A stretch of 64,000 nucleotides of DNA from a virus. A program made the translations under genes and the position numbers. The stretch spans positions 33,596 to 97,595 of the IMG/VR virus record IMGVR_UViG_3300028920_000052; one strand, 5' to 3'. Each line of letters starts with the position of its first letter. The stretch's first letter is position 1. The notes under the pieces were generated by a model, which was given only the letters and a program-made list of their open reading frames with translations, was not told the origin of the DNA and ran no database searches. This document shows, in pieces, positions 2,736-64,000 of this stretch.

Positions 2736-2975
2736 TTATTTGGTCCAGTAATCACTAACACTGCAATCAGCAACTATAGGTATTGTTTTGATAGATTCTT
2801 GTGCAGCTTGTATCATTAATCTTTCTAATACCTTACTCCATTCTTCAGCAAAGTCTTCTCTACATTCAGTCTGTATTTCATCATAAATACTTAATAGGAT
2901 ATATACAGGGTAGTTATGTTTATCAATTTCATTTTGAACTAGACATAAAGCTCTCTTAATAATATCTCCATTTGT
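2736..2975 (-). CDS. Family A DNA polymerase, exon 3 (motif C)
   Basis: This is the last exon of the split polymerase: 79 residues plus TAA. It begins with TNGDIIKRA, which restores the conserved PIQGT..D..K.A block when joined to exon 2. It carries motif C as SIYDEIQ, where most family A enzymes have VHDE, so the usual histidine is tyrosine. The aspartate, at about residue 590 of the spliced protein, would be the second catalytic metal ligand. The ATG at 2978 is only partly exon: the G at 2976 is the predicted last base of the intron. Confidence 0.85.
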   Translation of the reverse strand, partial: TNGDIIKRALCLVQNEIDKHNYPVYILLSIYDEIQTECREDFAEEWSKVLERLMIQAAQESIKTIPIVADCSVSDYWTK

Positions 2976-3825: not shown

Positions 3826-4317
3826 ACCCTGTATCGGACTATTTTTACTTTTTCTTTCAATACTACCTAAAGATTTATAATCTTCTTTATTTAAAGAAAG
3901 ATTTTTATAATTTTTAAAATAAGATTTCCACTCAGGAAAATATCTTAGTCTTCTATATGGAGCACCTGTTCTAATATATCCTCTTGTTTTACCTAATTCT
4001 CCTAAATGCACTAGAAATGAATATACTTGTGATACTCTAGAAAAGAAGGTTTTAATAAGTTTTTTAGCATCATCTACTGATACTTGTATTGTATCTGCTA
4101 ACTTATATTCTGACATTCCAAAAGCCAATCCAAAATTTATAGTCTTTTGTACATCTCTGTATGTAAATGTAGGTTTTGGTGGAAATGGTTTTTTTACATC
4201 CTTTATAGGAATATTAAATGTCATTGCACATAGTTTAGAGTGCAAATCTTCCCCGTTCTTAAACGCATTAACCCAGGTTGGATCTTGGCTGAATTCTGCT
4301 ATAATTCTGAGTTCCAT
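3826..4317 (-). CDS. Family A DNA polymerase, exon 2 (motifs A end and B)
   Basis: This 164-residue exon starts MELRIIAEF, the continuation of motif A, and ends NSPIQG. Motif B appears as RDVQKTINFGLAFG, at about residues 448-461 of the spliced protein, with the conserved Arg and Lys. The tyrosine usual in NFGxxYG is phenylalanine here. Read unspliced, this exon runs into a stop codon a few codons into intron 2, so splicing is needed for a working enzyme. Confidence 0.87.
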
Positions 4318-5283
4318 CAACAGGTTTTCTTCCTGCTGGACTTTATCTTAACCATATACAATTATATTGTACTTAGGTAATCTCCGTTAAGTCTCTACAC
4401 CTTCCTTATTTCACACAAGGCTTGGCTCGGTATTCCCAACGCTGGTTCACCGAATTTGAAGATTTTGTACTTTAAATGTTTCCAAATAAAGAGGCATATA
4501 ATCTGTTATATTTTCTTTCTAGATAAACAGATGCGTTTTTGTATATTAAATTATATAAAGAAGCTATGTCTTTTTTAGAATATATTCCTATTATGTAAAT
4601 ACTATCTTTTCTACAAGAAACTGTACAATGAATATTATTTTGGGTAAACCACTCTACAAGTTGATTCTTAAATTCTACAGATTGGGTAGCAATTTCAGTC
4701 CTACCAGTAGTTTTTCTAATAAACCCATCTCCATCTATTACTCCTCTAATAAAAGAAGGTGATAGTGAAATATTCATTTTAATAGTTTTACTTTTTCTGG
4801 GAGTTATTCCAAGATTTCTCAAGAATAAATTACAAGATTTATTTTTGAATACGACTCTATATTCAATAGAATTAAACTTTTTACTAAAAACTGTTCTTAT
4901 AGGTACCTTTGAAAATTTTGAATACTTTTTTATATGTTCTAAATCTTTTTCTTGTAATCCTAAAGATACTACATATTCTTTATCTCCTATAGTTCCATCA
5001 GAAGCAAGCATACCTAACCAATATTGCACTTCTTCATTTTCTAAATCTAAAAATGGATTAAGTACTTTACTTTGAGCTTCTGATTGATTTCTTGGAATTA
5101 TTCTATTTCTTAATAATATTCTTCTAATAGTAGTATTATAAGTTTTTAACTCTAAAGCTAATTGTTTCGTAGTCTTACCCTGTAAATATTCTTTAACTAT
5201 TTGTTCTTCATTATATTTTAACATACGTATAATTATTGATTCGGCAATATATACCACAATAATCATACCAATTTTTATCTTCT
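4318..5283 (-). mobile_element. Group I intron 1 in the DNA polymerase gene
   Basis: The predicted 966-nt intron is inserted inside catalytic motif A (GGDYSG|MELR). The exon ends in T (GGT) and the intron ends in G before ATGGAACTC, as group I introns do. Core-like sequences lie after the endonuclease gene on the minus strand: ACCGAGCCAAGCC and GGTGTAGAGACTTAACGG, resembling the P7/P3 core. A GCCG stretch about 40 bases into the intron could pair with the exon end, but this P1 is weak. Without splicing, exon 1 stops after two extra codons. Confidence 0.82.
4472..5224 (-). CDS. LAGLIDADG homing endonuclease inside intron 1
   Basis: About 250 residues from the ATG at 5224. A start at 5266 would add 14 hydrophobic residues that overlap the intron 5' end and look less natural. 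The N-terminus has a helix-turn-helix-like stretch (TTKQLALELKTYNTTIRRIL). Two LAGLIDADG-type helices follow, WLGMLASDGTIG and FIRGVIDGDGFI, each with the acidic residue that binds metal. One chain with two motifs would act as a monomer on an asymmetric site, probably the intronless motif A sequence of the polymerase gene. Confidence 0.88.
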   Translation of the reverse strand: MLKYNEEQIVKEYLQGKTTKQLALELKTYNTTIRRILLRNRIIPRNQSEAQSKVLNPFLDLENEEVQYWLGMLASDGTIGDKEYVVSLGLQEKDLEHIKKYSKFSKVPIRTVFSKKFNSIEYRVVFKNKSCNLFLRNLGITPRKSKTIKMNISLSPSFIRGVIDGDGFIRKTTGRTEIATQSVEFKNQLVEWFTQNNIHCTVSCRKDSIYIIGIYSKKDIASLYNLIYKNASVYLERKYNRLYASLFGNI

Positions 5284-6465
5284 ACCGCTGTAGTCTCCAC
5301 CAACAATTTTATATCCTTCTCTAGGTATAAAAGCACTTCTAATTTCTTTACCAAATTCTCCATGTGAAGGGATTTGATTTAGGTTAGGTTCTGATACTGA
5401 GATTCTTCCAGTTGCCAATATTTGCCATACATTATAATGAACTCTTTTAGTAACAGAATTTATATGTTTTAAAAAGTTCATACCAAAAGCATCAGCAAGT
5501 TTATTATGTTTACTGTAATTTATTAATAGGGAAACTAATGAATGGCTAAACTTATTTTTTTGCAGTATTCTATCTCCTACAGAGTCAATTTTTAATCCTA
5601 ATTCTCTTAATATTTCTAATTTCTGTTGATTTGACTTCCAATTTATGTAAGTATCTCTTTCTGTATTATCAAAGAAAAGATTTCCTTGTTTATATATTGT
5701 ACAATATTTAGTTAAAGCATTAGTATTCGGTAAATCTTTAGTACCTAATTTATAAATTAAAGTATCCATTTCTTTTTCTACATCATCTCTAATTTTTGAA
5801 GCTTTAATTGCAACATTTTTCCATTTATCAGTGTCTACTCTAATCCCAGTGTACTCCATCCTAGCAAATACTTTTACTACTTCATTTTCTAAATTTAATG
5901 TGTTTTCTAACCCTAAAGTTTTTATTTTTGGCAATTGTAAGTCTTTGATTTTACCTAAATACTTTACATCATTACATCCATAAACTATTACTCTATCTGA
6001 TAATCCTTCAGAATGTATTTTTCCTCTTATTTCTTTATCTAATTCAACATTAAGGTACTTCTTTGCTATACCTTTTAAACTTACATCTCTTTCTTCATCT
6101 GAATATCCAGTAGTTAGAATGCATTCAGCAAGAAATGTATCATAAATATTTTCTACAACTAGATTATTATGATAAAGAAATTTTAAATCAAATTTTGCGT
6201 TTTGAAATAAAAATAACTTAGACTTATCTGCAAATAAAGGTATAAAAACTGAAGAATCTATACTACTCCAATCAATAAAAAATTGATTATCATAATCTCC
6301 TAATTGTAAAGATATTACTCTTTTAGTATAAGGGTCAAATCCTTCAGTTTCTGTATCTACTCCTATTTCTTTTAAACTATTACAATATTCAAGACAATCT
6401 TGAATACTTGCTAGTTTTATATCTTCATTTTCAATTCTTTTTTGATTACTGACTAAGTATATCAT
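5284..6465 (-). CDS. Family A DNA polymerase, exon 1 (3'-5' exonuclease and palm start)
   Basis: This 394-residue exon begins the replicative polymerase; exons 1-3 join to about 637 residues. It contains a DnaQ-like proofreading domain: exo I DTETEGFDP (D37, E39), exo II NAKFDLKFL (N89, D93) and exo III VYGCNDVKYL (Y162, D166). It ends in the first half of motif A, GGDYSG, where D391 is the first polymerase metal ligand. There is no 5'-3' exonuclease domain, as in other phage family A enzymes. Its ATG overlaps the upstream stop (6464-6462). It would replicate phage DNA with the helicase downstream. Confidence 0.9.
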
Positions 6466-9870: not shown

Positions 9871-10153
9871 TTGTTACATTATACAATTCTTTCTGATTAT
9901 CTAAAAATATTTCTTCACATAACAATGGTTCTGTACCTAATATTTTTAATAATTCAGATTCATATCCTTTTGGAATTATTTCATCCAAAGTAGTAATTGC
10001 CTTGCTGTAGAATTCACACTCTAACCAAAATCTAATTGCAGATTCTACATCATCAAACTCTTTTTCCATTTGATGATAACCATGTTTAGTAATATGCTTT
10101 CTATCTTCAGGTAAATCTATATTACCATTATATACTACTACAATTTTACTCAT
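9842..10153 (-). CDS. Hypothetical acidic protein
   Basis: I take the ATG at 10153, giving 103 residues starting MSKIVVVYNG. This start overlaps the upstream stop (10148-10146), the usual arrangement in this operon. The protein is acidic (many Glu/Asp near the C-terminus, ending DADDLLS). No family is recognised. Small acidic early phage proteins often bind host factors, but nothing specific can be said. Confidence 0.6.
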   Translation of the reverse strand: MSKIVVVYNGNIDLPEDRKHITKHGYHQMEKEFDDVESAIRFWLECEFYSKAITTLDEIIPKGYESELLKILGTEPLLCEEIFLDNQKELYNVTNEDADDLLS

Positions 10154-10427
10154 GGTATAATTTGTTATTAAAGTAAACTTTATTAATAATATATCCAGCA
10201 TCTCTAAGAGACTGTAGATGAGTTGATACTTCACTTTTATAACATACAAATGAGTGAGTAGATCTATACTCTTTTACTTTAGGAGAATGTTGAGTATATA
10301 CTATTAGCCTACATTTATATTTCTCATAAGGTGTATAAAAACTACCTACTAATTTTTCCTTATGAAGTGATTTCATAAGTTTAATTTGCTTCCTTTCTTC
10401 AGGAGTTTTTTGAATTGTATTGCTCAT
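10146..10427 (-). CDS. Hypothetical basic protein
   Basis: This 93-residue lysine-rich protein begins MSNTIQKTPEERKQIK, with several tyrosines and a helical central part (SEVSTHLQSLRDAGY). The leader contains CTAACACTAAAGACTC just before ATG, a motif shared with other left-arm genes. Possible nucleic-acid binding is suggested only by its charge. Confidence 0.6.
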   Translation of the reverse strand: MSNTIQKTPEERKQIKLMKSLHKEKLVGSFYTPYEKYKCRLIVYTQHSPKVKEYRSTHSFVCYKSEVSTHLQSLRDAGYIINKVYFNNKLYHE

Positions 10428-10448
10428 AATTTGAGTCTTTAGTGTTAG

Positions 10449-10841
10449 TTAATAAATATCAAATCTCCAAGTATACTTTGAAGTATTATTTTTTCTTGTT
10501 CTTACTGTTGTAGATTGAATATATCCAAATAAAGATTCTATTGCTCTTTCAATAGGAGTTTCAGATGTTCTTACTATTCCTTTGTAAAAGCTATCATTAA
10601 AAATAGTTAGTATATCATTATAGTATCCTGTATTTTCTCTAATTTTCATATATAGTTCAAATAGATTTGTAAACATACAACTTCTAAACTCATATAAATA
10701 TTTTTTAGGGTCTAAAGCATAATGTTTTTTATAATACTTCTCTAATAATCCTATTATTGTGCCATCATTTTTGAAAGGGTGTCTTCCTTTACATAGTCTT
10801 AATAATCTCTTTTCACGCTTATTTAAAATTATTTTGCTCAT
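10449..10841 (-). CDS. Hypothetical basic helical protein
   Basis: This 130-residue protein begins MSKIILNKREKRLLRLC and is helical, with a basic C-terminus (TTVRTRKNNTSKYTWRF). The leader CTAATAATAAAGCCTC before ATG matches the shared left-arm leader. A 10-bp stem element lies 35 bases upstream (10876-10915). Function is unknown. Confidence 0.6.
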   Translation of the reverse strand: MSKIILNKREKRLLRLCKGRHPFKNDGTIIGLLEKYYKKHYALDPKKYLYEFRSCMFTNLFELYMKIRENTGYYNDILTIFNDSFYKGIVRTSETPIERAIESLFGYIQSTTVRTRKNNTSKYTWRFDIY

Positions 10842-16485: not shown

Positions 16486-16505
16486 ATAAAAAGTATATAT
16501 ATTTG
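16475..16505 (+). promoter_or_regulatory. Bacteroides-type promoter for the GroES-like gene
   Basis: TTG (16475-16477), 20 bp, then TATATTTG (16498-16505). It overlaps the end of the upstream gene and lies 23 bases before ATG 16528. Confidence 0.7.
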
Positions 16506-16527
16506 TCAAACTAAAAAATTAAATTAA

Positions 16528-16833
16528 ATGGAAAGAATTAAAGACTTGAGCAAAGTTACACTTCAGATGCATACAGTATTACTGAAGATGACAGAAAAGA
16601 AAACTAACATTATTATGCCTGAAGAAGCAGAAGAGGGCAATAAGATGAATTTTAAGCACGGTATTGTTATTGCTAAAGATGCTAGTGTAACTAAACTAGA
16701 TGTTGGGGATGTAGTTTTAGAATTTCCAGGAGGAAGAGTATATGACTGGAAAGGTAATAAGTATGTTATGGTTAGAGCAGATGCTATAACTTTAGCAGTT
16801 AAGCCTGATAATATTGAATTAACAGAAGAGTAA
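16528..16833 (+). CDS. GroES-like co-chaperonin (Cpn10 fold)
   Basis: This 101-residue protein follows the GroES pattern: a strand (LQMHTVLLKM), a mobile-loop-like segment (TEKKTNIIMPEEAEE), GIVIAKDASV, KLDVGDVVLEFPGG, then WKGNKYVMVRADAITLAV. The usual roof loop is shortened. Such a protein would cap host GroEL to fold phage proteins, as T4 Gp31 does for its capsid protein. It has its own promoter and lies a few kilobases before the capsid genes, which fits. The fold is well supported; partner and activity are inferred. Confidence 0.75.
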   Translation: MERIKDLSKVTLQMHTVLLKMTEKKTNIIMPEEAEEGNKMNFKHGIVIAKDASVTKLDVGDVVLEFPGGRVYDWKGNKYVMVRADAITLAVKPDNIELTEE

Positions 16834-16865
16834 CTTACCAATTAGTAACTTAAACATTAAAAATT

Positions 16866-32680: not shown

Positions 32681-33496
32681 ATGACGTTAAGTAAAATTAA
32701 AAAATTTGGTACTAATTATGACTCTGATGAGATTGTAGCTAGAGCCAAAGATGTGAATCCAATTATAGATGTGGTTAATGCCATGACAGATGGTACTAGT
32801 ACTGCTGGAGCATTCTCTTCTATAACTGTGGATACAATTGCAGAAACTACTAGTGGTGGTGGAGTAACTATTGATAGTGTAGCATTAAAAGATGGTGGAA
32901 TTACTTTAACTACTTCTGGTGCAGGAACTGGATTTGCTGTAACATCTACAACACAAACAGCAACCAATCTATGTACTATTACTACAGCAACTGCTGTTAC
33001 CACAGCTTCTTCTTTGAGGGCAATGAATGTGGCTATGACTTCTTCAGGAGTTTCTACAACTAACATGATAGAAGTTGCTAAGTTTTCATTGACTTCTGCT
33101 GTTAAAAATGGTAACTGGATTAATGCTGTTGTTGGTCAGATAGATCTATCAACTGCTGGATATGCAACAGGACTTGCTGGTGTAATTTGTGGCGAACTAG
33201 ATTTACCTTCAACTAATCCTGCAGGAGGTGCTGGCACTTATACTGTATTTGAAGGGGAATTAAGTGTTCCTGCTACATTTACAAGTGATGTTCCTGTATC
33301 ATTTATTAACTTAAATGTTTGGGGAGATGGTGCTGCTACTTTTGATACCAATGGTTATATTATGGATATAACAGGTGTAACAGTGGCTTCAGGTAAAGTA
33401 TTTCAAGCAAATACAGCTGCGGCTGCAACTCATGCATTAAGAATTAGAGTAGCAGGAACACCTTACTACATAATGTTGACTGATTCTGGTGCTTAA
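32681..33496 (+). CDS. Thr/Ala/Gly-rich structural protein (decoration or fibre)
   Basis: This 271-residue protein has a short helical N-terminus (to about 35) and then repetitive beta-rich sequence with many Thr, Ala, Ser and Gly. It ends RIRVAGTPYYIMLTDSGA, a type of C-terminus seen on phage surface fibres and decoration proteins. It would trimerise on the particle surface. Which site it occupies cannot be read. Confidence 0.6.
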   Translation: MTLSKIKKFGTNYDSDEIVARAKDVNPIIDVVNAMTDGTSTAGAFSSITVDTIAETTSGGGVTIDSVALKDGGITLTTSGAGTGFAVTSTTQTATNLCTITTATAVTTASSLRAMNVAMTSSGVSTTNMIEVAKFSLTSAVKNGNWINAVVGQIDLSTAGYATGLAGVICGELDLPSTNPAGGAGTYTVFEGELSVPATFTSDVPVSFINLNVWGDGAATFDTNGYIMDITGVTVASGKVFQANTAAAATHALRIRVAGTPYYIMLTDSGA

Positions 33497-33868: not shown

Positions 33869-35419
33869 ATGATTAATGAAAAAAATGCAACTTACTGCTT
33901 TGTAGGAAATGTTGCAAATGGAATTGCTGATGATGCTGTATATACAGGAATGGCTGCTGGCTCAATTGCTGTAGTAAAAGCATTAGATAACAAAAATGAG
34001 GAGGATGCAATATCAGGATCTACTCCTGTACGTATAGTGCAGAAAAATACTGATGGTACTTATAAGTTCTCTCCTATATTTAGTTATGAAGATATTCAGA
34101 CAAAAGAGAGTGAAGATTTTGCTGCTAATACCCAGCAAGTAAGTTACTTTGGCTATGATGGTACAAGTAATACTACTGGATTTGGAACTCTTGTAGCTGG
34201 TGATACTTATACTCTAAGTATTATACTTAACCATAGTAGGAATACTTATAATAATGCTCCAGAGATTAAGACTGTACCTTTCCGTGCAACTTCAACTTCT
34301 CAAGCTGATTTAGCTAAAGGACTTCAAGAAAGTTTTATTCGCCAGTTTAGTACTCTTAGAGAGCCTAATCCAGTTATTAGGTGTGAAAGGGTTGCTGATG
34401 TTGCTAGTGTTGCTGTTTTAACTGATGATGCTACAATTTATAAATTAACTAAAGGTTCTACTTCAGTATCAGCTTATGTAAAAACTTCTGAAGCTAGTGC
34501 TGCTATGACAGCTAGTGAAGTTACTTTAACCGCTGGGGATATTATACATGTTGCTTCTAGTGGTGCAAGAACTTTTACATTTGATGCTACAGATGCCGAC
34601 CATGTAATTTTTATAGGAGAAACTTCTTATATAGTTGCTGATGCAGGTACTGCTGGAGATGGTAGTGATAACCAGGATGCTATTGTTGCTGCTATTAATG
34701 CAGGAACACAAGCTACTGCTGCTGCTAGTTCTACAGCTACTGTTACTATTACCTATTTGCCTGATACATATGCATTACCTCCAATGGTAATTTCTGATGC
34801 TGATGGTACACCTGCAACTGTGGCTGTTACTGCTGCTAGTGGGGATACTAAGCCTGTTTTATATAAAGTTGCTGCTAGCGTAGCTGATTCTGCTACTTTT
34901 GAATTAGATGTTCCTTTTCAGGGAGAAACTGGATATTTATGGGAAGGTACTGGAGCAACTACTACTAGTTCAATAGGGGCTGCTACTCTAACTACTGGTT
35001 ACTGGGGACTTAAATTTTCAGGACTTACACAACCATTTGATCCTATTAATGATAGTATGGTTAATCAATTGGTTCTTTTTGATGTTGTTTCAGCTGACTT
35101 TACGGATGTTACTGAGTACAAATCACAGAAACCTAAGTATGGTACTGGTACATGGCAATCAGTTGCTTATCAAGAATTCTATTCACAGTTCTTAACTCGT
35201 GATAGCATTAGGTCAACCAGACCTCTTACTAAGTACACCTTAGAAACTGACACGAATTCTGGATATGATGTTATTACAATAGCTGTTAGAGCATCTTCTA
35301 TTCAATTTGAAACAATTGGGCAAACTGTTAATTCTAATTTCAGATTAGTTATTGCTACTAAAGCAACTCCAACTGATCTTGATGGGGATGCTTTGCAAAC
35401 TGTGTTTGACGTATCCTAA
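33869..35419 (+). CDS. Virion structural protein with Ala/Thr-rich insertion
   Basis: This 516-residue protein has a beta-rich N-terminus, an Ala/Thr/Ser-rich insertion at about 205-340 that reads as an Ig-like or decoration domain, and a C-terminal part (TEYKSQKPKYGTGTWQSV...). Codon use is as regular as in the capsid gene, and a strong terminator follows, so it is probably abundant. Candidates are an auxiliary capsid or major tail protein. I cannot choose between them. Confidence 0.65.
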   Translation: MINEKNATYCFVGNVANGIADDAVYTGMAAGSIAVVKALDNKNEEDAISGSTPVRIVQKNTDGTYKFSPIFSYEDIQTKESEDFAANTQQVSYFGYDGTSNTTGFGTLVAGDTYTLSIILNHSRNTYNNAPEIKTVPFRATSTSQADLAKGLQESFIRQFSTLREPNPVIRCERVADVASVAVLTDDATIYKLTKGSTSVSAYVKTSEASAAMTASEVTLTAGDIIHVASSGARTFTFDATDADHVIFIGETSYIVADAGTAGDGSDNQDAIVAAINAGTQATAAASSTATVTITYLPDTYALPPMVISDADGTPATVAVTAASGDTKPVLYKVAASVADSATFELDVPFQGETGYLWEGTGATTTSSIGAATLTTGYWGLKFSGLTQPFDPINDSMVNQLVLFDVVSADFTDVTEYKSQKPKYGTGTWQSVAYQEFYSQFLTRDSIRSTRPLTKYTLETDTNSGYDVITIAVRASSIQFETIGQTVNSNFRLVIATKATPTDLDGDALQTVFDVS

Positions 35420-35498: not shown

Positions 35499-35837
35499 AT
35501 GTCAAAAGACAATCATACACATATAGAATCTGTTAGCAAGTATGCTTCAGATGCAATAACAGGAAAATCCTTTGGGGACAGAGGTACTGTATTATTAACA
35601 TCTACTTCTAATTATGGAGCAGGTGCTGGAGTAGCTCCTAATGGAAACTATTTTGGATTTATAGTAGGTTCAGACGGAGTAACTCTTACTTCAATAACTT
35701 TTAACAATAATATACATCAAACTTATTCAACTGAAACTATAGCAGATTTAGGCTTAGTTGAAGGACAATTTTATCCTTTAGAGGGAATACAAACATTAAC
35801 AATAACAGCAGGAGCATTATTACTGTATAAAATGTAA
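35499..35837 (+). CDS. Small beta-rich virion protein, fibre accessory
   Basis: This 112-residue protein begins MSKDNHTHIESVSKYAS and is glycine-, serine- and threonine-rich, with beta strands to its end (LTITAGALLLYKM). It precedes the receptor-binding gene by 3 bases. A capping or attachment piece for the fibre is plausible. It has no known motif. Confidence 0.6.
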   Translation: MSKDNHTHIESVSKYASDAITGKSFGDRGTVLLTSTSNYGAGAGVAPNGNYFGFIVGSDGVTLTSITFNNNIHQTYSTETIADLGLVEGQFYPLEGIQTLTITAGALLLYKM

Positions 35838-35840
35838 AGC

Positions 35841-37271
35841 ATGTTAAGACTTGGATTAGGATTAAACATAAAAAGAGCTTTAGCAAATATTGTAAAAAAA
35901 TTAACTGCTTTGTATATTGCTAGAGTTACTACTGATAGTGGTACAACTAGGAGTGAAAGCAGTGTGTTAGATATATACCAATGGTTTAAAGACAATAATC
36001 TTTTAGACTACATCAAATTCCTATGGTTTGCGGAAGCAGGTATAAAAGTTGCTAATCCAACTGATACGTTAAAGAGGATAAGTAAAGGATACTCACTAGA
36101 TGCTACACCTAATGATTGGACACAAGGCACTGAAGGTAATCAACCCTATCTAAGTGGCGACATAGCCCCAACCGAAAAGTATGCGTTTAAAAACGTTGCA
36201 GGGTCGGAGCGATTTTTGGAGTTTACCGATTTAGTTTTTGGTAATGGCGACCCGTGGACGGTTACATTCGTGGGTAACTGGGATGGCTCGAACAATGCCG
36301 ATGCTGGATTAATAGGAAAAGGTAATGATAGTGCAGGGCTAATTTCTTTAAGAGATAGTTCAACCAACCGTTTCCGTTTCATTAATGATGCGGGGGCTTC
36401 AGTTGCGGGAAGTTTGCCAATTAATCATATTATAGGACAGAACACAATCGTTTCATTCGTGGCAGCTGGTGACGGTAGTCTAAAAATCTACATGGAAGGA
36501 GCCTTGTTTGAAACGTTGACGGTAGCAACGGGTGTAACTTTTGATAGATTTTTAAAGGCATTCAGCACAGCCAGCCGTGAGTTCTTTGGGAGGTGTCACC
36601 ATATCGAGGTGATGCACTATGCGTTAACCTCACTTATTAGCTCTTACCATGCTTTACTTAGGACTAAGTTTGCCAAGTTTGAAACAGTGCAAATCGGTAG
36701 CCAGTACTGGACAACAAGTGACTTTAATGGAGTTTGTGGGGCGAATGGAACGCTGATTCCTAATGTAACTGATGGAACGACTTGGGCGGGATTATCTACT
36801 CCTGCATGGTGTTACTATAATAATGACCCTGCTACTGGTGCAATATATGGTAAGTTATATAACTGGTATGCTGTAAAGCAATTACAGGATGATATTGATG
36901 CTTGGAATACTGCTAATCCTACTAATACGTTTGGGTATCATATACCTTCAAAAACGGAAGTTGAAACATTATCAACATCATTAGGAGGAGATTCTGTTGC
37001 AGGGGGCAAAATGAAGTTAGCAGGTACTACATTTTGGACTACTCCAAATACAGGGGCAGATAATGCCAGTGGATTTACAGCATTAGGAGCGGGAGTTAGG
37101 CTATTAAATGGGAATTACTCATTACTAAATCAAAGAGCATATATTTGGGCATCTGAACAATATAATGCAAGTAATGGATATTATTCCAGAGTTTTTTATG
37201 ACCAAGCAAGTTGTGAAGTGAATAATGTCGAAAAAATATATGGTTTTTCAATCAGACTACTAAAAGACTAA
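35841..37271 (+). CDS. Receptor-binding protein candidate: LamG-like plus FISUMP (C-type-lectin-like) domains
   Basis: This 476-residue protein has three parts. Residues 1-100 are a phage-type anchor. Residues 100-280 are a concanavalin/LamG-like beta sandwich (WTVTFVGNWDGSNNADAGLIG). Residues 280-476 match the Fibrobacter-major-paralogous (FISUMP) type, with IGSQYWTTSDFNGV, YNWYAV, YHIPSKTEVETL, IWASEQY and a GFSIRLLKD end. This fold is used by variable proteins of diversity-generating retroelements. Bases 36130-36620 use clearly more G+C and CGx/GCG codons than the flanks, a sign of transfer. It probably binds surface glycans. Confidence 0.78.
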   Translation: MLRLGLGLNIKRALANIVKKLTALYIARVTTDSGTTRSESSVLDIYQWFKDNNLLDYIKFLWFAEAGIKVANPTDTLKRISKGYSLDATPNDWTQGTEGNQPYLSGDIAPTEKYAFKNVAGSERFLEFTDLVFGNGDPWTVTFVGNWDGSNNADAGLIGKGNDSAGLISLRDSSTNRFRFINDAGASVAGSLPINHIIGQNTIVSFVAAGDGSLKIYMEGALFETLTVATGVTFDRFLKAFSTASREFFGRCHHIEVMHYALTSLISSYHALLRTKFAKFETVQIGSQYWTTSDFNGVCGANGTLIPNVTDGTTWAGLSTPAWCYYNNDPATGAIYGKLYNWYAVKQLQDDIDAWNTANPTNTFGYHIPSKTEVETLSTSLGGDSVAGGKMKLAGTTFWTTPNTGADNASGFTALGAGVRLLNGNYSLLNQRAYIWASEQYNASNGYYSRVFYDQASCEVNNVEKIYGFSIRLLKD

Positions 37272-37273
37272 CT

Positions 37274-37792
37274 ATGAATAAAGCAATATTCAATACAATA
37301 GAATCCTACCTAGACAAGCTAGTTGAGATTAATCAGTTACTAGGCTATCCTGATGATAGGGGTACAGTAACCTATGCGAGTTTTGAACCTGAACCTGTGG
37401 AAATATATGAACAGGATGAAGAAGGTAATGATATTCTAGTTAGAACATACTACGAGATGCAGATAGAACAGAGTGTGCTACACCTGTTTCATAATCATAC
37501 AGAGTTTACAGAAGGATATGCTAAACTAATTGCTAAGAAAGCACAGGATAAACCTGTTAGAGTATTAGTACCTATTGATGTATTTAAGGATTGGCAAGAG
37601 AGTAGTCATCCTGAGGTTATAGCGTTAATGCAGTATTGTAATGCTAATGGTATAACAGAGGCAGCCTTTGAAGAAGGTTTTACTGAAGGTTATGATGTTG
37701 AGAATATACTTCCAAAGCAGGTGTACTTAGAATTTATTTACCCTATTCATGCAGAGCTAGCAGTAAAGCATGGAGCAATAATTGAGGAATGA
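37274..37792 (+). CDS. Putative fibre chaperone or assembly protein
   Basis: This 172-residue acidic helical protein begins MNKAIFNTIESYLDK. It follows the receptor-binding gene by two bases, the usual place of fibre assembly chaperones. No conserved motif is seen. Confidence 0.55.
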   Translation: MNKAIFNTIESYLDKLVEINQLLGYPDDRGTVTYASFEPEPVEIYEQDEEGNDILVRTYYEMQIEQSVLHLFHNHTEFTEGYAKLIAKKAQDKPVRVLVPIDVFKDWQESSHPEVIALMQYCNANGITEAAFEEGFTEGYDVENILPKQVYLEFIYPIHAELAVKHGAIIEE

Positions 37793-38235
37793 TTATGTGG
37801 ACGGAAGCATCTTTACTTTTGATAATAATTTATGCTATTATAGTAGTAAGTTGTTTTGGATTACAGGACAGTTTTAGCGCAAGTTATAAAGAAGTAGGAA
37901 ATTGGTTTACTGTGTGGTGTATTTCAGTAGGAATACTCTTATTTATAGGATTAGTTAAAGAAAATCCTATAGTATTATTTCCTACATTTGGATTTATAGT
38001 AGTAGGACTTGCTCCTAAATTTGATGAGTGGCAGAAACCTATTCATTACCTAGGTGCTTTATTTATAATATTAGGAGGATGTGGTGTTATAGCTTATGAA
38101 AAGTTTTGGTATGGGTTAATTGCTTTAGGCATTATAGCAAGTTTTACTTTGTTAACTAGAAAGATAAAAAGAAAAATATTATGGTTGGAGATAATATCAA
38201 TCATTACTATATATAGTTTTATTTTAATAAAATAA
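37789..38235 (+). CDS. Polytopic membrane protein
   Basis: This 148-residue protein has four or five hydrophobic helices: about 8-24, 44-58, 63-75, 90-103, and 108-120 with 130-147. Loops are charged. It overlaps the upstream gene by four bases (ATGA). It could act in exclusion, ejection or lysis; nothing specific is visible. Confidence 0.65.
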   Translation: MIMWTEASLLLIIIYAIIVVSCFGLQDSFSASYKEVGNWFTVWCISVGILLFIGLVKENPIVLFPTFGFIVVGLAPKFDEWQKPIHYLGALFIILGGCGVIAYEKFWYGLIALGIIASFTLLTRKIKRKILWLEIISIITIYSFILIK

Positions 38236-38260: not shown

Positions 38261-38659
38261 ATGGAAGGAAAAGAGGCAGACCTTACTAAGAAGGTAGAAG
38301 AATTACAAGAAAGTAACATTAATTTAAGATTTAATACTGTGGAAAAAGAACTGCTTGAAATAAAAACTCTTCTTAGAGAATCTATCAATAAAGCAGAGTT
38401 AAACCATGAGTTAGCCCTGAAAAATATTGATGTAGTTAAAGGAAAAATAACTATACTTGAAGAAAAATACAGGAACTGCCCTATCAATACTTACAAAAGT
38501 GAATTAAAAAGATATGCTTTAGAAACTAGATTTTTACGGGCTGTATTTACTAATCCCATTAAAGGAACATTAGCCTTAACTGCTTGGATAACATTAGTTA
38601 TAGTTTTATTAGCAGCATTTGGACTAGAACCTCTTTTAAAATTAATAGCTTTATTCTAA
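38261..38659 (+). CDS. Coiled-coil protein with C-terminal membrane anchor
   Basis: This 132-residue protein has a coiled coil at about 5-80, then a basic stretch and one membrane helix near 108-130 (LTAWITLVIVLLAAFGLEPLL). The layout fits a membrane-anchored accessory lysis protein or a fibre-linked protein. It lies beside another membrane protein, 7 kb before the lysis cassette. Confidence 0.62.
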   Translation: MEGKEADLTKKVEELQESNINLRFNTVEKELLEIKTLLRESINKAELNHELALKNIDVVKGKITILEEKYRNCPINTYKSELKRYALETRFLRAVFTNPIKGTLALTAWITLVIVLLAAFGLEPLLKLIALF

Positions 38660-39134: not shown

Positions 39135-39421
39135 TGACAGCAGAAGAATTAGCAACAGTAATATCTACATTGAAATACAATTACTTAATTGTAAATGGTG
39201 TTTATATTAATAAAGTAAGAATAGGAAGTTTTACTACAGTAAACAGACTTAGAGAACTTCTTGAGGCTGTGGATATATTCCTACAGATATTAGATTACTA
39301 TGCTGATATACCTTCTGATGAATTAGAAGATGCAGAAATTGATGAGGATGATATACTCATTATTATAGCAGAAGCAGATAAATTACTGGATACATATAAA
39401 CTATACTATGGCTCTAGATAA
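39134..39421 (+). CDS. Hypothetical acidic protein
   Basis: This 95-residue helical, acidic protein begins MTAEELATVISTLKYNY. The C-terminal half has a DDILIIIAEADKLLD helix. It overlaps the fibre gene by 14 bases. Position suggests fibre assembly. Confidence 0.55.
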   Translation: MTAEELATVISTLKYNYLIVNGVYINKVRIGSFTTVNRLRELLEAVDIFLQILDYYADIPSDELEDAEIDEDDILIIIAEADKLLDTYKLYYGSR

Positions 39422-40994
39422 AGATTACTCGCCAGACTTTAGTACTGGAAGTACTTACACAACTGATAGTCCATTATCAATAGACCCTGATTCTATAGGG
39501 GCTAGTGATGGTTCTCCTAGTTTTGTAGTACCAGCAACAGGAGGAGGAACTACTATTACTGATTATGTATCAGCTTCAACAGGAGGTACTTTTAGTGGAT
39601 TAGTTAGTTATAATAATGCTAAAACTTTATCAGGAGATTATAACTTTACTTATAAATCTTGGGTTGAAAATGCCATAGCTACTGCCGTATCTTCTGGGGC
39701 ATTTACAACTTTATTCACTACCCTGTTTGAATCAGCAGATTTAGCAGATTTGGCTGTAAAAAAACACAATGATTTAACAGATCATCAAGGAGGGCAAACT
39801 GACCAATATTATCACTTAAATGCTACTTGGTATGCTAATGCCTCAAGATTTGCTACAGCTGCTGTATCAGGAATATTGAGTACTACAGATTGGAACACCT
39901 TTAATAACAAACTCTCTAGTGTTACAGCTGGTACAGGAATATCTGTTACAGGTAGTACTATTAGTACTAATGATAGTGAAATAGACCATGACTCCTTAAG
40001 TAATTTTTTACCTGAAGAGCATATACCTAAAGATGATACTAAAACTACTACAGCTTATGTATGGTCAGCCAGTAAAATTATATCTTATGTAGGAGAACAA
40101 ATTCCTGCTACTCTTACAGATTATGTATCTAAAGCAAGTGGAGGAGTATTTAGTGGTACTATTTCTTACAACGATGAAAAATCTATTACTACTAATTTCC
40201 AAATTCCACATAAAAAATACGTAGATGATGCTATATCTGCAGCTTTAACAGATTATGCTACAGATACTGATGTATCAGATGCTATAAGTGCAATAACTAT
40301 TGTCCATGCTGATACAACAGGTAAACAAGGAGGAACTAGTGGACAATATTATCACCTAACTCAAGCACAACATACTATAGCAACTCAATCTGCTACTACT
40401 GCTAGAGATGGTTACTTAACTAAAGAGAATTTTGATATATTTACTGCTAAACTAGATAGCTTTAGTGTTAGTGTAAGTTCCACACTTACAACTTTTTTAG
40501 AATTTACTGGAGGAGTATTATACTGGGATCCTTCTGTATTAGACCACGATGCTCTACTTAATTATGAAGCGGATGAGCATACCCCCCTTGATGATTCATC
40601 TACAACAGATTCTAATCTTTGGTCAGCAGAAAAGATAGTTTCCATTGCGGGAACTATATATACAGTTACTTTAGCCCCTGGTACAAGTTTAGCAACTACT
40701 GCAGGAGGAAGATTATATGTGGCAGGAGGAGTAGTTGTTCCTTCTGGATGGACAGTAACTAATCCTAGTGGTAATGATTTACTTATAACGCATAGTCTTG
40801 GTAAAAAATTAAAGTCTATTTCTATATGGGTTTCTGAGGGGGATACTGATGATACTATTAAACTTGAAGGGACTATAGGATATACAACCTGTACTAATAC
40901 ATATGGTACTGGGTATAATGCTCTTACTTTGACAGATATAAACTGTTCTACTGCATTTTCAGGCAAGAAATTAGATATACAACTTATATTTTAA
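39408..40994 (+). CDS. Tail fibre protein with duplicated modules
   Basis: This 528-residue protein is built of two similar halves. HNDLTDHQGGQTDQYYHL repeats later as TGKQGGTSGQYYHL. DHDSLSNFLPEEHIPKDD repeats as DHDALLNYEADEHTPLDD, each followed by VWSASKIIS or LWSAEKIVS. GGxFSGxxSYN also occurs twice. The C-terminal 120 residues form a separate beta domain. Such triple-helical shafts with collagen-like or histidine repeats are typical of phage fibres. It would bind the host. Confidence 0.75.
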   Translation: MALDKDYSPDFSTGSTYTTDSPLSIDPDSIGASDGSPSFVVPATGGGTTITDYVSASTGGTFSGLVSYNNAKTLSGDYNFTYKSWVENAIATAVSSGAFTTLFTTLFESADLADLAVKKHNDLTDHQGGQTDQYYHLNATWYANASRFATAAVSGILSTTDWNTFNNKLSSVTAGTGISVTGSTISTNDSEIDHDSLSNFLPEEHIPKDDTKTTTAYVWSASKIISYVGEQIPATLTDYVSKASGGVFSGTISYNDEKSITTNFQIPHKKYVDDAISAALTDYATDTDVSDAISAITIVHADTTGKQGGTSGQYYHLTQAQHTIATQSATTARDGYLTKENFDIFTAKLDSFSVSVSSTLTTFLEFTGGVLYWDPSVLDHDALLNYEADEHTPLDDSSTTDSNLWSAEKIVSIAGTIYTVTLAPGTSLATTAGGRLYVAGGVVVPSGWTVTNPSGNDLLITHSLGKKLKSISIWVSEGDTDDTIKLEGTIGYTTCTNTYGTGYNALTLTDINCSTAFSGKKLDIQLIF

Positions 40995-48994: not shown

Positions 48995-51900
48995 ATGGTA
49001 ACTGAAATCTATAACACATTCCTTAAAGGACTAGATACTGATACTAATCCAGTAAACTATTCCAATGATAACTACTACAGCGCTAATAATTTTAGACTTA
49101 TAGTAGATGAAGAACTGTCTTCACTTACTCTTACTAATGGTAAAGGGTTAGAACTTACTTTTACTACCTATCCAAATAAGGTAGGTACTGTTAAAATTAA
49201 AGGGGCATGTGAAATAGATGAAAATTTAATTCTATTTGTTGGTAATGGGGAAATACATGTTATACCAATTGCAAGTTTAAATACAGGAACTATTATAGAT
49301 TTAACAGCAACAACAACTTATAGAATTGTAAATAAAGCATTTGCTTTTGGTGATAGAGTTATAGCAATACCAAAACATGAAAGAACTAATCTTAGAAAAG
49401 TATATTGGGCTGATGGAGACAATCCTGTAAGAGTTATTAATATTGATGAAGATGATACTACATTAGATGGCATGGCTGTAGGGGAATTTGCATTAGTGAG
49501 AAGATGCTTACTTTCAACTCCTGAATTAGAATCTGTAACAGGAGGAAGTTTAAAATCTGGAGTATATAGATATGCATATTGTCTATTTGATGAATATGCT
49601 GGTCAAACTTCTTATTCTTCATTAAGCCAAGCAATACCAGTGGTATCTGAAGATTTTGTTGATGCTACTAGTAATAAAAAAGGATGGACTTTTAGAGGAG
49701 AAGAGTCTGGAGTTACTACGTCAAAAGGGTTACAAATTAAGATAACTCAAAATACTAATCTTAGTACACACCAAGAAGAATTTTCTAATATAAGAGTAGT
49801 ATCTTTATACTACACTTCCCAAACTTCAATACCTGAAGTTACTATAATATATGAAGGACTTAATGTTTCAGAAGTATATGTAGAAGATATGGGGACATTA
49901 AATTTAGGTACTCTTGCTTATGAAGAATTTACAGCAATGAATATGTACCTTATTCCTCAAACTATAGAGACTAAAAATAATTATTTATTCTTTGGTAATG
50001 TAACTGAAAGTGCTTATGATGTAGATTATGATGCTAGAGCATATAGATTTAATTCAGATGGTGAAGCTCTTATTTGGGATGCTTCTGATTTCAGTGTTGA
50101 TGCAGAAACAGATGTTTCAGATTATGATGTAGATGAAGATGCCGATTGTGCTAATAAATATAATGTACTAGATTATGACAGTTATACTGGAAATACTTCA
50201 TCTAGCACTACTCCTAGAGTAACTGCAGAAGATTGTAAATATCAATCTGATGGTGAGACTTTAGGAGGAGAAGGTTTAAACATAGCATATGAATTCATAA
50301 CAGACACAATAACTGGTGGAGATCCTGCAAATAGTAATCAACCTTATCTTAATCCTACAGATTATATTAGTATAGGATATCAAAGAGATGAAATATATAG
50401 ATTTGGAATAAGGCTATTTAATACCTATGGAGAAGGAACATTTGTTAAATGGATTGGAGATATAAGATTTCCAAGTGTTGAAGAAAAACCTATTTATAAC
50501 TCAGGTACAGGGTATATTAATATTTTAGGGATTAAATTCACTGTTAGTAATTTACCTACAGGTGTTACAGGTTATCAAATAGTTAGAGCAACAAGAAATA
50601 CTGGAGATCAAACAGTTGTTGATACTGGATATATAGGACATTTACAAATAGGTGATTCAAATATAGGGTATTATTTTGGAGGTACCTATAATAGCTATAG
50701 CTCAACTAAAGATTCAAATCTTTATTCTAGACCTAAATTATACTCATCAGCATTAACTGGTGCTCCTCAACGAGATATTGTGGAATATATTTCTCCAGAA
50801 ACTACTTACAACAATATCGCATCTACTAATTATAATAGGATTGATAGTTATGAAGGAACAAATACTTCTGATTGGTTAAGAACAGGACTAAGCACTCCAT
50901 ATGATAATGATAATGTATCTTTAACATATTTAACCCAAGCATATGATTCAGGAGAAACTCCTATAGTAACAAAGATAAAAACTATAGACTGTTTTAAGTA
51001 CAGTGGTGTACATGATGATGATTACAGTGTTATTATGGGAGGAAGGTTTGGTTCCATAAAATTAAATTCTGAGAGTAATAATAATGATGAACTTGACCAA
51101 TATAATATAGATGGAGTGTATGCTAAAGGTAACAGGGGAGTTAAAGGAACTACTCTTCTCTTAAACCTTGTAACTAATTTAACTAAAAATGATGATAATG
51201 ACTATCTAAATTATCCAGCATATGCATTAAGAAGAAATCATATTAAACCTTATGGAGGATTTACTTATGGAGCTATTCAAGCTACAGAATATATACCATG
51301 TACTTCCATACAAGATTCAACAACTTCTTATGTAGATACTTGGGGAGGAGATACTTTCATTACTTGGTATGACTACTTAAGAGTAGGCTGGTATGATTAT
51401 GTAGGTTCTAAAGATGAAGAAGACACAGTAGATAAATATAATAGTAATAAGTATGCTCAAATAGTTAGATGTTTAGTTGAGAGTAAAATAAACTTAACCT
51501 ACACAGTTAGTCCTACTATTCTTTACTACAACTTATTTACACAAGCTACAGCAAACCTAGCACAAGCAGAATATGACTATTTAGCTATGTGGGAAACTGC
51601 AGGAAGTTATTTATTAGCAGATGACCCTGCTGGAGATGCTGACAGAAAATATTTTGAACAGGATTTTAATATGTATACTTATAACCCTGTGTTCTCTGCA
51701 TTGAACTATGCTACAACTTATATAGCAAAACCTAATTATTTTTCAGAAACTAATGTATTTCCTAACCGTATTTATAGAAGTGATAAAAAAATTGATGGAG
51801 CTGTTTCGGATAATTGGGGAACAGTTAAAGCTTTTAATTTCTTAGATGTTGATAGTTCATATGGGGAAATAACTAGACTTTACACGCATAATAATACTTT

Positions 51901-52837
51901 GCTATGTTTCCAACCTAAAGGTATTTCAGTACTTCCTATAGAAGAAAGAGAACAAGTAAGTACAACTAGTGGATCAAGTGTTGCTATAGGTACTGGAGAT
52001 GTTTTAAGTAGGTATGATTATTTGAGTAACACTTCAGGTACTGCATTCCATGATTCTATAGTGGGAACTAATAATGGAATTTATTATGTTGATGGTATCA
52101 ATAAGAAAATAGCTGTACTTGCACAAGGAGTACAGTTTATTTCAGATACTAAAAAGATAATGTCTTATACAGCTAACAAAGATTTTTCTACTGCAGTAAT
52201 GTTGTATAATCCTAAATATTCTGAACTATGGATTAATATAGATGATGATACAATAATATTTAATGAATACCTAGGATACTTTACTTCTACATTAGATACA
52301 ACTTTTGAATTTGGCTTTACTATAAATGGATTAACTCATTGTGTAGATAGTGTTACAAGAGGAATTTATACTAATAGCAATATGCTTATATTAGATCAAG
52401 GTAATTATGGGGCATATGATTCTAGTTCAAACTATTATAATACTGAGCTAACTCAGCCTACTATAGATTCCAGTGAAATAAAATTTGTTGTTAATCCTGC
52501 TAATGGTATGAAGAATAGATTTGATAGTATTGATTTAAACACATATACTTATGTAGATGATGTTAATGCTAGTCATTCTTATACTTTTAATGGATTAGTT
52601 GCTAAGACTTTATATCAAACTTGCACTCAAACATCTTTACATGCTAATGCTAAAAGGAGATTTGGTACTTGGAGATATAATAACCTTAGAGGAGATTCTA
52701 ATGATAGATTGCACGATAACTACCTAAAGTTAGAGTTGACCTTTAGCCCTACAACAATTGGATTTAGAGATGGAGATGATGTTAAGTTTGTAGTTAATGG
52801 AATTAGTACTAATTTTATTCCAACTTTTATTAGATAA
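48995..52837 (+). CDS. Muzzle-like tail tip protein
   Basis: This 1280-residue beta-rich protein begins YNTFLKGLDTDTNPVNYSNDNYYSANNFRL, a start that recurs in the large tail-tip (muzzle or stabilisation) protein of crAss-like phages. It follows the ring genes by three bases. The rest is full of Thr, Tyr, Asn and Asp, with few helices, as for a tail knob. It would close the tail and open on host contact. Confidence 0.74.
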   Translation: MVTEIYNTFLKGLDTDTNPVNYSNDNYYSANNFRLIVDEELSSLTLTNGKGLELTFTTYPNKVGTVKIKGACEIDENLILFVGNGEIHVIPIASLNTGTIIDLTATTTYRIVNKAFAFGDRVIAIPKHERTNLRKVYWADGDNPVRVINIDEDDTTLDGMAVGEFALVRRCLLSTPELESVTGGSLKSGVYRYAYCLFDEYAGQTSYSSLSQAIPVVSEDFVDATSNKKGWTFRGEESGVTTSKGLQIKITQNTNLSTHQEEFSNIRVVSLYYTSQTSIPEVTIIYEGLNVSEVYVEDMGTLNLGTLAYEEFTAMNMYLIPQTIETKNNYLFFGNVTESAYDVDYDARAYRFNSDGEALIWDASDFSVDAETDVSDYDVDEDADCANKYNVLDYDSYTGNTSSSTTPRVTAEDCKYQSDGETLGGEGLNIAYEFITDTITGGDPANSNQPYLNPTDYISIGYQRDEIYRFGIRLFNTYGEGTFVKWIGDIRFPSVEEKPIYNSGTGYINILGIKFTVSNLPTGVTGYQIVRATRNTGDQTVVDTGYIGHLQIGDSNIGYYFGGTYNSYSSTKDSNLYSRPKLYSSALTGAPQRDIVEYISPETTYNNIASTNYNRIDSYEGTNTSDWLRTGLSTPYDNDNVSLTYLTQAYDSGETPIVTKIKTIDCFKYSGVHDDDYSVIMGGRFGSIKLNSESNNNDELDQYNIDGVYAKGNRGVKGTTLLLNLVTNLTKNDDNDYLNYPAYALRRNHIKPYGGFTYGAIQATEYIPCTSIQDSTTSYVDTWGGDTFITWYDYLRVGWYDYVGSKDEEDTVDKYNSNKYAQIVRCLVESKINLTYTVSPTILYYNLFTQATANLAQAEYDYLAMWETAGSYLLADDPAGDADRKYFEQDFNMYTYNPVFSALNYATTYIAKPNYFSETNVFPNRIYRSDKKIDGAVSDNWGTVKAFNFLDVDSSYGEITRLYTHNNTLLCFQPKGISVLPIEEREQVSTTSGSSVAIGTGDVLSRYDYLSNTSGTAFHDSIVGTNNGIYYVDGINKKIAVLAQGVQFISDTKKIMSYTANKDFSTAVMLYNPKYSELWINIDDDTIIFNEYLGYFTSTLDTTFEFGFTINGLTHCVDSVTRGIYTNSNMLILDQGNYGAYDSSSNYYNTELTQPTIDSSEIKFVVNPANGMKNRFDSIDLNTYTYVDDVNASHSYTFNGLVAKTLYQTCTQTSLHANAKRRFGTWRYNNLRGDSNDRLHDNYLKLELTFSPTTIGFRDGDDVKFVVNGISTNFIPTFIR

Positions 52838-62800: not shown

Positions 62801-64000
62801 AGTTTAAAAGAAAAGGAACTTTTATTAACCAGTTTAGTTGGACTGAAGATGGAAAACCTAGTGGAGTATTTTCTGCACTAGTACACGCACTTACAAGTAA
62901 AGAAGAAGTAGACAGTTCACAGGAAGTAACTGAACCTATAGAAGTAAATAATCCCTTTGAAGGTAAGCATAAAGAAAGTGCTGCAATGTTTCTAGCAAAA
63001 CTTTCTGCACAACATTCAGAGACTTTATTTTCTTCTTCACACAGAAATGTAGAAGGCAAGACTATATATGATTATAGTTTCCACATACCTCTTACAAGTA
63101 GATTAAAGGAGTTTAATAATGGTACAGAATTAAAAAATAAATTAAAAACTCAAGCTTTTTCTAGAAATGCATTCTGGTTAAAAGATAGTAATAGAGGACA
63201 TAAAATCCATTACAATGATACTGATGGGTTAAAACAAAATGCTAAAGGTAGAGATGGTATAGTTAGAGATAGGATGTCTAACAGAGAACAAGAGTTTACA
63301 TCTATGATGCTGTTTCAACAGCCTAATAAAGAAGGTACTGCTAAATTTTTAGGATTAACAATGTCAGATAAAACTAGAAGTCCTATTATTGAAGCCCCCA
63401 AATTTAAATTTAATCTATTAACTTCAGGTGTTCAGAAAGATGGTACTATAACTAAAGAGGCTTTACCATTTCAAGTTAGAAATGAAATAGGAAATATAGT
63501 TAAAGCTGAAGCTGCTCGTATCAGAGAAATATATGGTAAGATTAAAGAGCATACTGAGAATGGCACTTTAGAAGAATATAAAAGAAATGTTGGAGAACAA
63601 TATTTTTATGGCTCACAATATTTCTATCTATTTCCAGAACTAAATGATATTATTTGGAAAGATGGTGTGGTAGATACTACTTTTTTAGTGGGTAAACAAT
63701 TAGAGGCTCTTATTGATAGTGCTATGAATAATATAGTAGATGTTGTAAATAATACTATAACTCAATGGCAAAATGATGGAACAACTAAACTAGATTCAAA
63801 AGGTAAATTAGAACATCAATTTAATTTATCATATGTAAAAGAACACACAAGTAGTTATAAAGGACTAAACTTGGCAGCATTTGCAGCAGCAGACTTAGAA
63901 ATAAATAACTTTATTTTTAATGCTAATATGCTTCAAATAGTGCAAGGAGATCCTGCATTATATTATAATACTAAATGGAACAAATTAAGTCCTAGAGAAA
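56860..64000 (+). CDS. Giant virion protein, truncated by the window edge
   Basis: An open frame from ATG 56860 to the end of the window, 2,380 codons without a stop. It begins MPKEIIFESSVPLEQPK. Hydrophobic, glycine-rich segments lie at about 85-110 and 150-215. Helical sections (about 240-760) and mixed beta domains follow. Such proteins in crAss-like phages are ejected cargo or part of the virion RNA polymerase region. I see no RNA polymerase catalytic DxDxD motif in the visible part, so the polymerase, if present, would lie downstream. The visible end has ANMLQIVQGDPALYY. Confidence 0.75.
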   Translation, partial: MPKEIIFESSVPLEQPKMNAPVIEELEFESTYTGASTPKQSQFKEKDFGRRYFKESAANPLFKDIEWERAEGQPWYEQLGAATTQAVVGSVLGQTIQGMGTLLAIPDMIGGDMSMDNPIYDLGKGISDWAAETTPIYQTGDRFTDSGYWFQGLTSAASAASFLLPGWAFTKVGSAIAKGLKLGTTAGKMLTTGVGAFGMRHIEGAMEANDVRNKFLQEGMSGYQQGKIDIEKLRNSLSDEELQTLHQEMQQEIQSIPLQLPNPETGEMVDNSEALDAVRKKYQDIIAEKAITKYADEAAKLTYIADYSNLIFDIAQLGALTKPLSKLTRGTKAMGKVATAEGMGAKTWYGNIGQRMLNTSKVGLIEMTEGIEEQVNYISAQEGERHGKILAGLQEDDGSDLATRVGSKYAKEDEFWDSFIFGAIGGVGFRMIGDAVGMGESSKVEQRKLAEIQSRTETLKSHAAVIGDIVNNPNMSKEDKKSSILEQADAMGHEIGLRGSLAGNMEYVEKWLNKPELVKELQDLGFGEESDVKEVIDRVKESALLAENLYKKHYTNLYEQNIDEGVKQVMVQDRMALDATILDNFNEIQELEAQYSKLSSKDLFMMQRGINPQNVAMLNKFAVDRAINEMNRTLKEEKLTPEAKARIEKVLSKLQETSNEQSRVIEKAREEAAEAGVEFAFPKLTDLNLVDPRIVYNIGRKQYLSKMNETLTEELSEKVDPKNIKKEAAKAKEKITKPVEEFIQNDKDKETTKATEEAEKLRDSKKNKEEATKPEGTKIATDVNPEARQQLNTMGYKDSQIDELSREEREGILTNGTPAEEYFAETVEEEFISKETTAEKRNRLLKIREKRGEEFNLDIIPDTPQKFTNNVAELSLPLAPSIPGATIDLDASFGESDYDLDMSKVRLLEIRGRNSDGRITGTVRISDKNNNSFNAEVIFKDDAELAELTKVTPTEQNTSDVLDSNEETTNKDGDTPAEAEGEFSTPDNIFRKESAISINYSASNSVIVDKEGRRGTVDYDVSPIALSLSDWETLQTGDKVEVSLDTEYDGPVLRYDADGKPIRNAKGEVQTDTKTYAQLDVMNKPIKIQKLINGNKVTIGYLPTLDWVSAKTDTGEYLNIANEDGLNAEKQIENLKKIRQAIFDAGTSKVHSFKVNKGHGHLTKTTERVKTSEGKWVRVKQPVNEALPNTLKSKKYKDDFKPIVVFTGQFNTGENTHFPEENIATNDIEKLKDSRNKGAVILMLPSAVKDMFIPTAVTIPKLDNEVAKGLHYIITQVALGNTEVINNVSKTTGKDISTRKGLRDFLHQYIFFSSDAGKNASKDVPRIVFSIKNSTIDVHFKGKRVHRVSLNIKKSLEQQLKDLLPYIEQQRITVRSENINSEDKFVIPTLKTNEAGEGILDLNNDGTFNGYLLDRATTDIIEVKVTDDNYVTVVQPTINLEGSIEVIPIGTDETTTTKPKNKKVSRLKQRAENLAGITDEVDVNSVTAAKPEEGIYNEGEDMSMSELSAPVFLTLNDSKELYAKYKLLTKKGTIRTLPFKTEEDIADAERQLESLNRSFRYGFMLRKTSDGKRRILMFDKYAQIPQSTSDDAISELKREEIKLNATSLLVSDGDYVFGAERQRQIVGNIKYLVYSDLLETASQGKRMSVNKAFANALEDFEILRDDIIELSEMSEEEFAKQNTFIKTLGFAKMVAEDLKRITKPEVWQQFRGQTIQDLKALGIEVRKDVLREENNFLLEDVDVEENELSVNENDHQNEKNYSIETFQINPKNTASINVKLMLSKIPDSRPNYLGLESYIPFDTAFDELTMMLSPEEGKLSSYLEQMKLAANNNSSKAYLKHVIEYLQDENTTTQLKNQFTAVMNKNAGNFLMVLWKKENNGYSTTIINSNRNSAHFRVIEQWAENIKNSPLATMNEKGEKVINKEKANALKQEMLELKGKSKEEHTKFLNKLLYELAIDIPPSALKILTETTAYSKLLNNEFKRKGTFINQFSWTEDGKPSGVFSALVHALTSKEEVDSSQEVTEPIEVNNPFEGKHKESAAMFLAKLSAQHSETLFSSSHRNVEGKTIYDYSFHIPLTSRLKEFNNGTELKNKLKTQAFSRNAFWLKDSNRGHKIHYNDTDGLKQNAKGRDGIVRDRMSNREQEFTSMMLFQQPNKEGTAKFLGLTMSDKTRSPIIEAPKFKFNLLTSGVQKDGTITKEALPFQVRNEIGNIVKAEAARIREIYGKIKEHTENGTLEEYKRNVGEQYFYGSQYFYLFPELNDIIWKDGVVDTTFLVGKQLEALIDSAMNNIVDVVNNTITQWQNDGTTKLDSKGKLEHQFNLSYVKEHTSSYKGLNLAAFAAADLEINNFIFNANMLQIVQGDPALYYNTKWNKLSPRE

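Follow-up and report, generated by a model that had tools for sequence, protein, structure and literature searches.

Receptor-binding proteins with a C-type lectin fold have been described in crAss-like phages, and diversity-generating retroelements (DGRs) act on proteins of this receptor-binding type in known members of the group (PMC7290462, PMC11054128). DGR cassettes of crAss-like phages were reported as complete in 15 of 91 cases and as incomplete in 66 (PMC7290462), and such cassettes are also described in PMC11054128. The FISUMP domain and the related DUF1566 domain are both known DGR targets (PMC4159848 Table 2; PMC8143477). Four described systems provide the closest comparisons. The tail-collar fiber protein of crAssphage LMMB (PMC7290462; MT006214), a receptor-binding candidate of 486 aa, carries a lectin-type variable end at its C-terminus and occupies a slot of variable gene content in the structural region, between the tail needle and the IHF/tail tubular genes, with a reverse transcriptase (RT; E = 3e-19) and a template repeat (TR; TR/VR score 79, where VR is the variable repeat) immediately downstream. 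In the Bacuni phages, a FISUMP/DUF1566 (Fib_succ_major) domain lies in a DGR target, a presumed adhesin of Bacteroidota phages, and is accompanied by an RT, Avd, a TR and two VRs in the last 35 aa (PMC8143477). The chimeric MAT fiber proteins of Bdellovibrio, such as Bd2740, combine a fiber or anchor with swapped tips, one of which adopts a calcium-free C-type lectin fold (PMC10769870). Finally, the fibers gp21-gp29 of phi-crAss001 are crassvirus adhesion proteins encoded beside the capsid and tail genes (PMC10172136).

We analyzed a window of 64,000 nucleotides, corresponding to bases 33596-97595 of a 97,595-b IMG/VR record, in which one gene shares traits with each of these systems. Like the LMMB fiber, its 476-aa product is a receptor-binding candidate of a member of Crassvirales with a variable C-terminal end of putative lectin type, and it is encoded in a variable slot of the structural region; unlike in LMMB, the RT and TR are both absent, and the slot is in another place. 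The FISUMP domain is shared with the Bacuni phages, whereas none of their DGR components was found here. Bd2740 is the top structural neighbor at a non-significant level (Foldseek E = 0.097, TMq 0.18), but it is bacterial and has a different architecture, and common descent is not implied. In contrast to the general likeness in gene position, no sequence relationship was found between the phi-crAss001 proteins and those of the slot, and the phi-crAss001 genome contains no FISUMP domain. We consider it likely that the gene encodes a virion-surface adhesin, a receptor-binding candidate built from exchangeable parts, which is probably diversified by module exchange with no DGR on board. The first-pass annotation had placed the gene at the same coordinates, and these delimit an open reading frame with an ATG start. 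Recoding of stop codons was considered for the phage, and the reading frames did not need it. The gene and its parts are as follows.

35841-37271, + strand: mosaic adhesin or receptor-binding candidate, 476 aa
35841-36140, + strand: N-terminal module of phage type (aa 1-100), putatively for attachment to the virion
35949-36755, + strand: segment of foreign composition, possibly a LamG/ConA-like jelly roll together with the start of FISUMP
36687-37268, + strand: FISUMP domain (aa 283-476), putative C-type-lectin-like tip
37107-37235, + strand: supposed hypervariable end (aa 423-465), where the FISUMP family varies most

The phage is assigned by its sequence to Crassvirales, because its terminase, portal and MCP belong to PHROGs 6681, 6547 and 11589, which are of the crAss-like type (E-values from 1e-86 to 1e-117), and because the MCP matches 101 phage records, of which the best-ranked are largely crAss-like phages. 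None of the named relatives compared at the DNA level is close, and among viral contigs L082 has the most similar capsid protein (MCP 82% identical). The first and last 641 b of the record (1-641 and 96955-97595, the latter being 63360-64000 of the window) match at 97.8% identity, and this overlap falls within one giant ORF, open at both ends. The record, although linear and free of end repeats according to its IMG/VR classification, thus represents an effectively complete genome, either a circle or a permuted molecule of about 96.95 kb. The 14 mismatches in the overlap suggest strain variation in the sample. Completeness matters here because the first-pass annotation, which had proposed DGR diversification of the gene's C-terminus, made the verdict on its proposal depend in part on the presence of an RT in the complete genome.

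By its profile matches, the C-terminal FISUMP domain is unambiguous. Pfam Fib_succ_major (PF09603) matches aa 283-475 over all of its 187 positions (1-187) with E = 1e-25 and 91.6 bits (cut-off 33.9), and the NCBIfam profile TIGR02145 matches with E = 4e-20 and 73.1 bits (curated cut-off 41.65). The AlphaFold2 model of this tip is confident (pLDDT 92.5). Its top PDB neighbors include Bd2740, which ranks first, a fimbrial protein of Bacteroides ovatus (4eps) and C-type lectins of snakes (snaclecs); E-values are at least 0.097 throughout, and none is significant. C-type lectins make up many of these top neighbors; this fold is documented for Bd2740 (PMC10769870), and a superposition of 4eps on TvpA, a variable protein of a DGR, has been published (PMC4159848). 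The modeled C-type lectin fold of the tip is thus suggestive only. Relatives of the domain occur in phages and in many Bacteroidota genomes, with identity up to 49%, and may form a pool for exchange. The window phage has a single FISUMP copy.

The N-terminus matches phage proteins only. Residues 7-91 weakly match phrog_28256, a phage family of unknown function (E = 2.8e-4), and residues 1-98 are 36% identical to a protein of the divergent crassvirus L002 (E = 4e-11). No close relatives of the N-terminus, of the middle region or of the 172-aa ORF downstream of the gene, each taken singly, were found in the viral contigs. The first-pass annotation had described LamG-like and FISUMP domains joined on a phage anchor; FISUMP and the phage-type N-terminus stand, but the Pfam search gave nothing above cut-off for LamG in aa ~100-275. 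The model of this region is of low confidence, and its Foldseek neighbors are mostly concanavalin-A/LamG-like jelly rolls, none of them significant (E-values of at least 0.07). Since the search with the full-length model was dominated by this low-confidence region, it served only as a hint. The LamG label is weakly supported, and the jelly roll is putative.

The gene is situated between two conserved genes of the structural region, together with two further ORFs.

35499-35837, + strand: conserved small protein of 112 aa, left border of the slot (homologs in L082, L083, L084, L086, L087 and L002)
37274-37792, + strand: ORF of 172 aa in the same insert, absent from L082 (no family match, no viral relative)
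37789-38235, + strand: hydrophobic, membrane-type ORF of 148 aa in the same insert, absent from L082 (called from sequence)
38261-38659, + strand: coiled-coil and membrane-helix protein of 132 aa, right border of the slot (60% identical homolog in L082)

In L082, the left-border homolog (16497-16853) is followed 8 b on by the right-border homolog (16862). Because the border homologs lie so close together there, the three-ORF segment 35841-38235 is, on sequence comparison, an insert relative to L082. The crassvirus L002 has a FISUMP ortholog (31% identical) directly after its own 112-aa homolog, which is the only ortholog of the full architecture known. In L086, the slot holds an unrelated 628-aa protein with a GDSL-like stretch and no Pfam family match, and L083 has two small ORFs in the slot region. 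Genes adjoining the slot are modular too. In the structural gene at 33869-35419, the middle (~aa 236-343) is found in L083 and missing from L082 and L084, and for 32681-33496 only the first 36 aa match L082.

We infer the virion location, host binding and direction of transfer from the domain content and genomic position. The N-terminal module would dock on the particle, the middle, probably a jelly roll, would act as a spacer or bind carbohydrates, and the C-terminal lectin-like tip would contact a surface molecule of the host, probably a member of Bacteroidota. The gene occupies a cassette slot that relatives fill with a distant ortholog, an unrelated protein or nothing. Diversity would arise as recombination swaps modules and tips and as the exposed loops diverge in the ordinary way, with tip and stalk being exchanged between phages and probably also with hosts.

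Contigs of L082 and L086/L087 have a second FISUMP site, which follows a large tail-type protein, and there the domain has a circularly permuted order, with HMM positions ~48-187 first and 1-46 following. The permuted form was detected by HMM in five contigs (L173:1426-2115, L176:1423-2088, L175, L078 and L079); in the sister phages, these genes adjoin the large tail-type protein. It can be speculated that, in this branch of crassviruses, a FISUMP lectin tip is portable between two sites among the virion genes, being in normal order on a LamG-like stalk at one and a circularly permuted stand-alone protein at the other, and that such tip-swapping replaces the work done by DGRs in gut crassviruses; we put this forward tentatively, as an extension that is possible though doubtful. 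If the tip and its permuted sister are indeed both virion adhesins, they would allow module exchange and targeted hypermutation to be compared cleanly within one virus order.

The product could instead be a capsid decoration or head fiber that sticks the particle to polysaccharides or surfaces, rather than the primary receptor-binding protein of the tail. The slot lies between MCP-proximal structural genes and presumed large tail proteins, the left-border protein is small, and the small head fibers gp21 and gp29 of phi-crAss001 are thought to bind external molecules (PMC10172136). However, when the 112-aa neighbor was considered as a head fiber of the gp21/gp29 type, it showed no detectable relationship to either protein. 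The sequence is compatible with head and tail alike, and the mechanism, an exchangeable lectin-like tip, would otherwise be identical. We regard a role restricted to the head as unlikely, and retain the virion-surface adhesin of exchangeable parts as the preferred reading.

By analogy, the DGR proposal was reasonable, because known crAss-like phages diversify such proteins by DGRs and FISUMP domains are among the targets described for DGRs. The first-pass annotation had taken the Asn/Tyr-rich C-terminal end as a sign of a DGR target. The enrichment is real, but ordinary for the family, ranking 4 of 50 homologs. Likewise, residues 423-465 have a mean column entropy of ~2-3 bits, compared to 0.5-1.6 elsewhere in the domain, in 50 viral and chromosomal homologs, and this variable C-terminal stretch is common to the whole FISUMP family, including homologs on bacterial contigs.

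The search of the remaining genome that the first-pass annotation proposed yielded neither an RT nor a template repeat. The profile RVT_1 is absent from the whole record, and the RT proteins of BPP-1 and LMMB gave no tblastn match to the genome. Two matches to the catalytic motif [YF]xDD, in a tail-region ORF (39408-40991) and a structural ORF (48995-52834), are not RTs. An adenine-tolerant search with the last 531 b of the gene against both strands of the whole genome reached a best score of 20, compared to 17-23 for unrelated segments, and the sole strong pair of adenine-tolerant repeats between any two places in the genome is the end overlap. The same RVT_1 search recovered the RTs of BPP-1 (9e-19), crAssphage LMMB (3e-19) and crAssE-Sib (3e-12), and TR/VR pairs scored 102 in BPP-1 and 79 in LMMB. 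Judged by the two defining features, RT and TR, both searched for and neither found, the gene is very probably not a DGR target. The combination of an effectively complete genome with working controls removes the DGR claim, and illustrates how a crassvirus can maintain a putative lectin-like adhesin tip in a slot of high turnover with no retroelement.

A weaker form of the proposal, in which an RT and template act in trans from a host or prophage, or the cassette has been lost and a relic variable repeat kept, draws on the precedents for FISUMP and DUF1566 (PMC4159848 Table 2; PMC8143477), on the complete and incomplete cassettes of crAss-like phages (PMC7290462, PMC11054128) and on the position of the family's greatest variability in the last part of the domain. 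The homologs on bacterial contigs are, however, equally variable, and RVT_1 was found neither in the 78 viral records that carry FISUMP relatives nor in the five sister-phage records, many of these being fragments. We know of no established case of DGR action across genomes. A near-identical copy of the gene itself was not found in the viral contigs. In most of the near-identical FISUMP ORF pairs listed, differences are not enriched in the last 180 b; the main exception, L066/L067 (domains at 10001-10579), has a 3'-end excess (50/180 vs 64/535), but its differences are also spread over the whole domain, and neither record contains RVT_1. Given these results together with the absence of both features from the genome, a DGR in trans or a relic is very improbable. 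Above-background adenine-tolerant scores in L065, L108, L117 and L045 come from paralogous FISUMP copies and not from template repeats, and a score of 32 in L006 reflects a 46-b repeat that starts around the stop codon of the gene and runs into the start of the next gene.

The preferred reading, a mosaic adhesin diversified by module exchange, also accommodates the composition of the gene. The highest-GC 500-b intervals of the whole 97.6-kb genome cover 36106-36655, starting at 36106-36156, with a GC content of 0.444, where the mean is 0.302 (sd 0.034). The best two-break model of GC3 delimits a foreign stretch at aa 37-305 (35949-36755), with GC3 values of 0.083 before, 0.383 within and 0.193 after it; the likelihood gain of 14.3 exceeds that of every one of 200 permutations (at most 11.7). 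A middle of foreign base composition, as the first-pass annotation had noticed, is thus present, but it is ~800 b long instead of 500 b and takes in the first ~25 residues of FISUMP. In the L002 ortholog, GC3 is raised towards the end (0.29-0.47, compared to 0.16-0.24 in the L002 portal and MCP). No donor of the segment was detected, either as a nucleotide match in the phage collection or as an exact match in the viral contigs. It is hardly credible that the break arose without import, in an old gene constrained by its amino acids or its expression: the missing donor and the raised GC of other modular genes nearby (34456-35055) would suit it, but the break sits in third codon positions, where GC3 reaches 0.38 and the other structural genes tested span 0.09-0.26, and the rise in L002 fits repeated import. 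The phage N-terminus, the foreign middle, the lectin-like tip and the changing cassette slot together uphold the first-pass view of a mosaic protein of the receptor-binding type.

The second GC-rich patch of the region, 34456-35055, overlaps the variable middle of the structural gene at 33869-35419. Outside the structural region, the DNA polymerase A locus (window positions 2739-6465, - strand) gave no Rfam match for an intron at the thresholds tried. The polymerase gene lies there in three pieces, which are separated by a LAGLIDADG ORF (4472-5266) and a 209-aa ORF (2984-3613), and their PF00476 matches join nearly seamlessly (30-160, 162-303 and 306-380).
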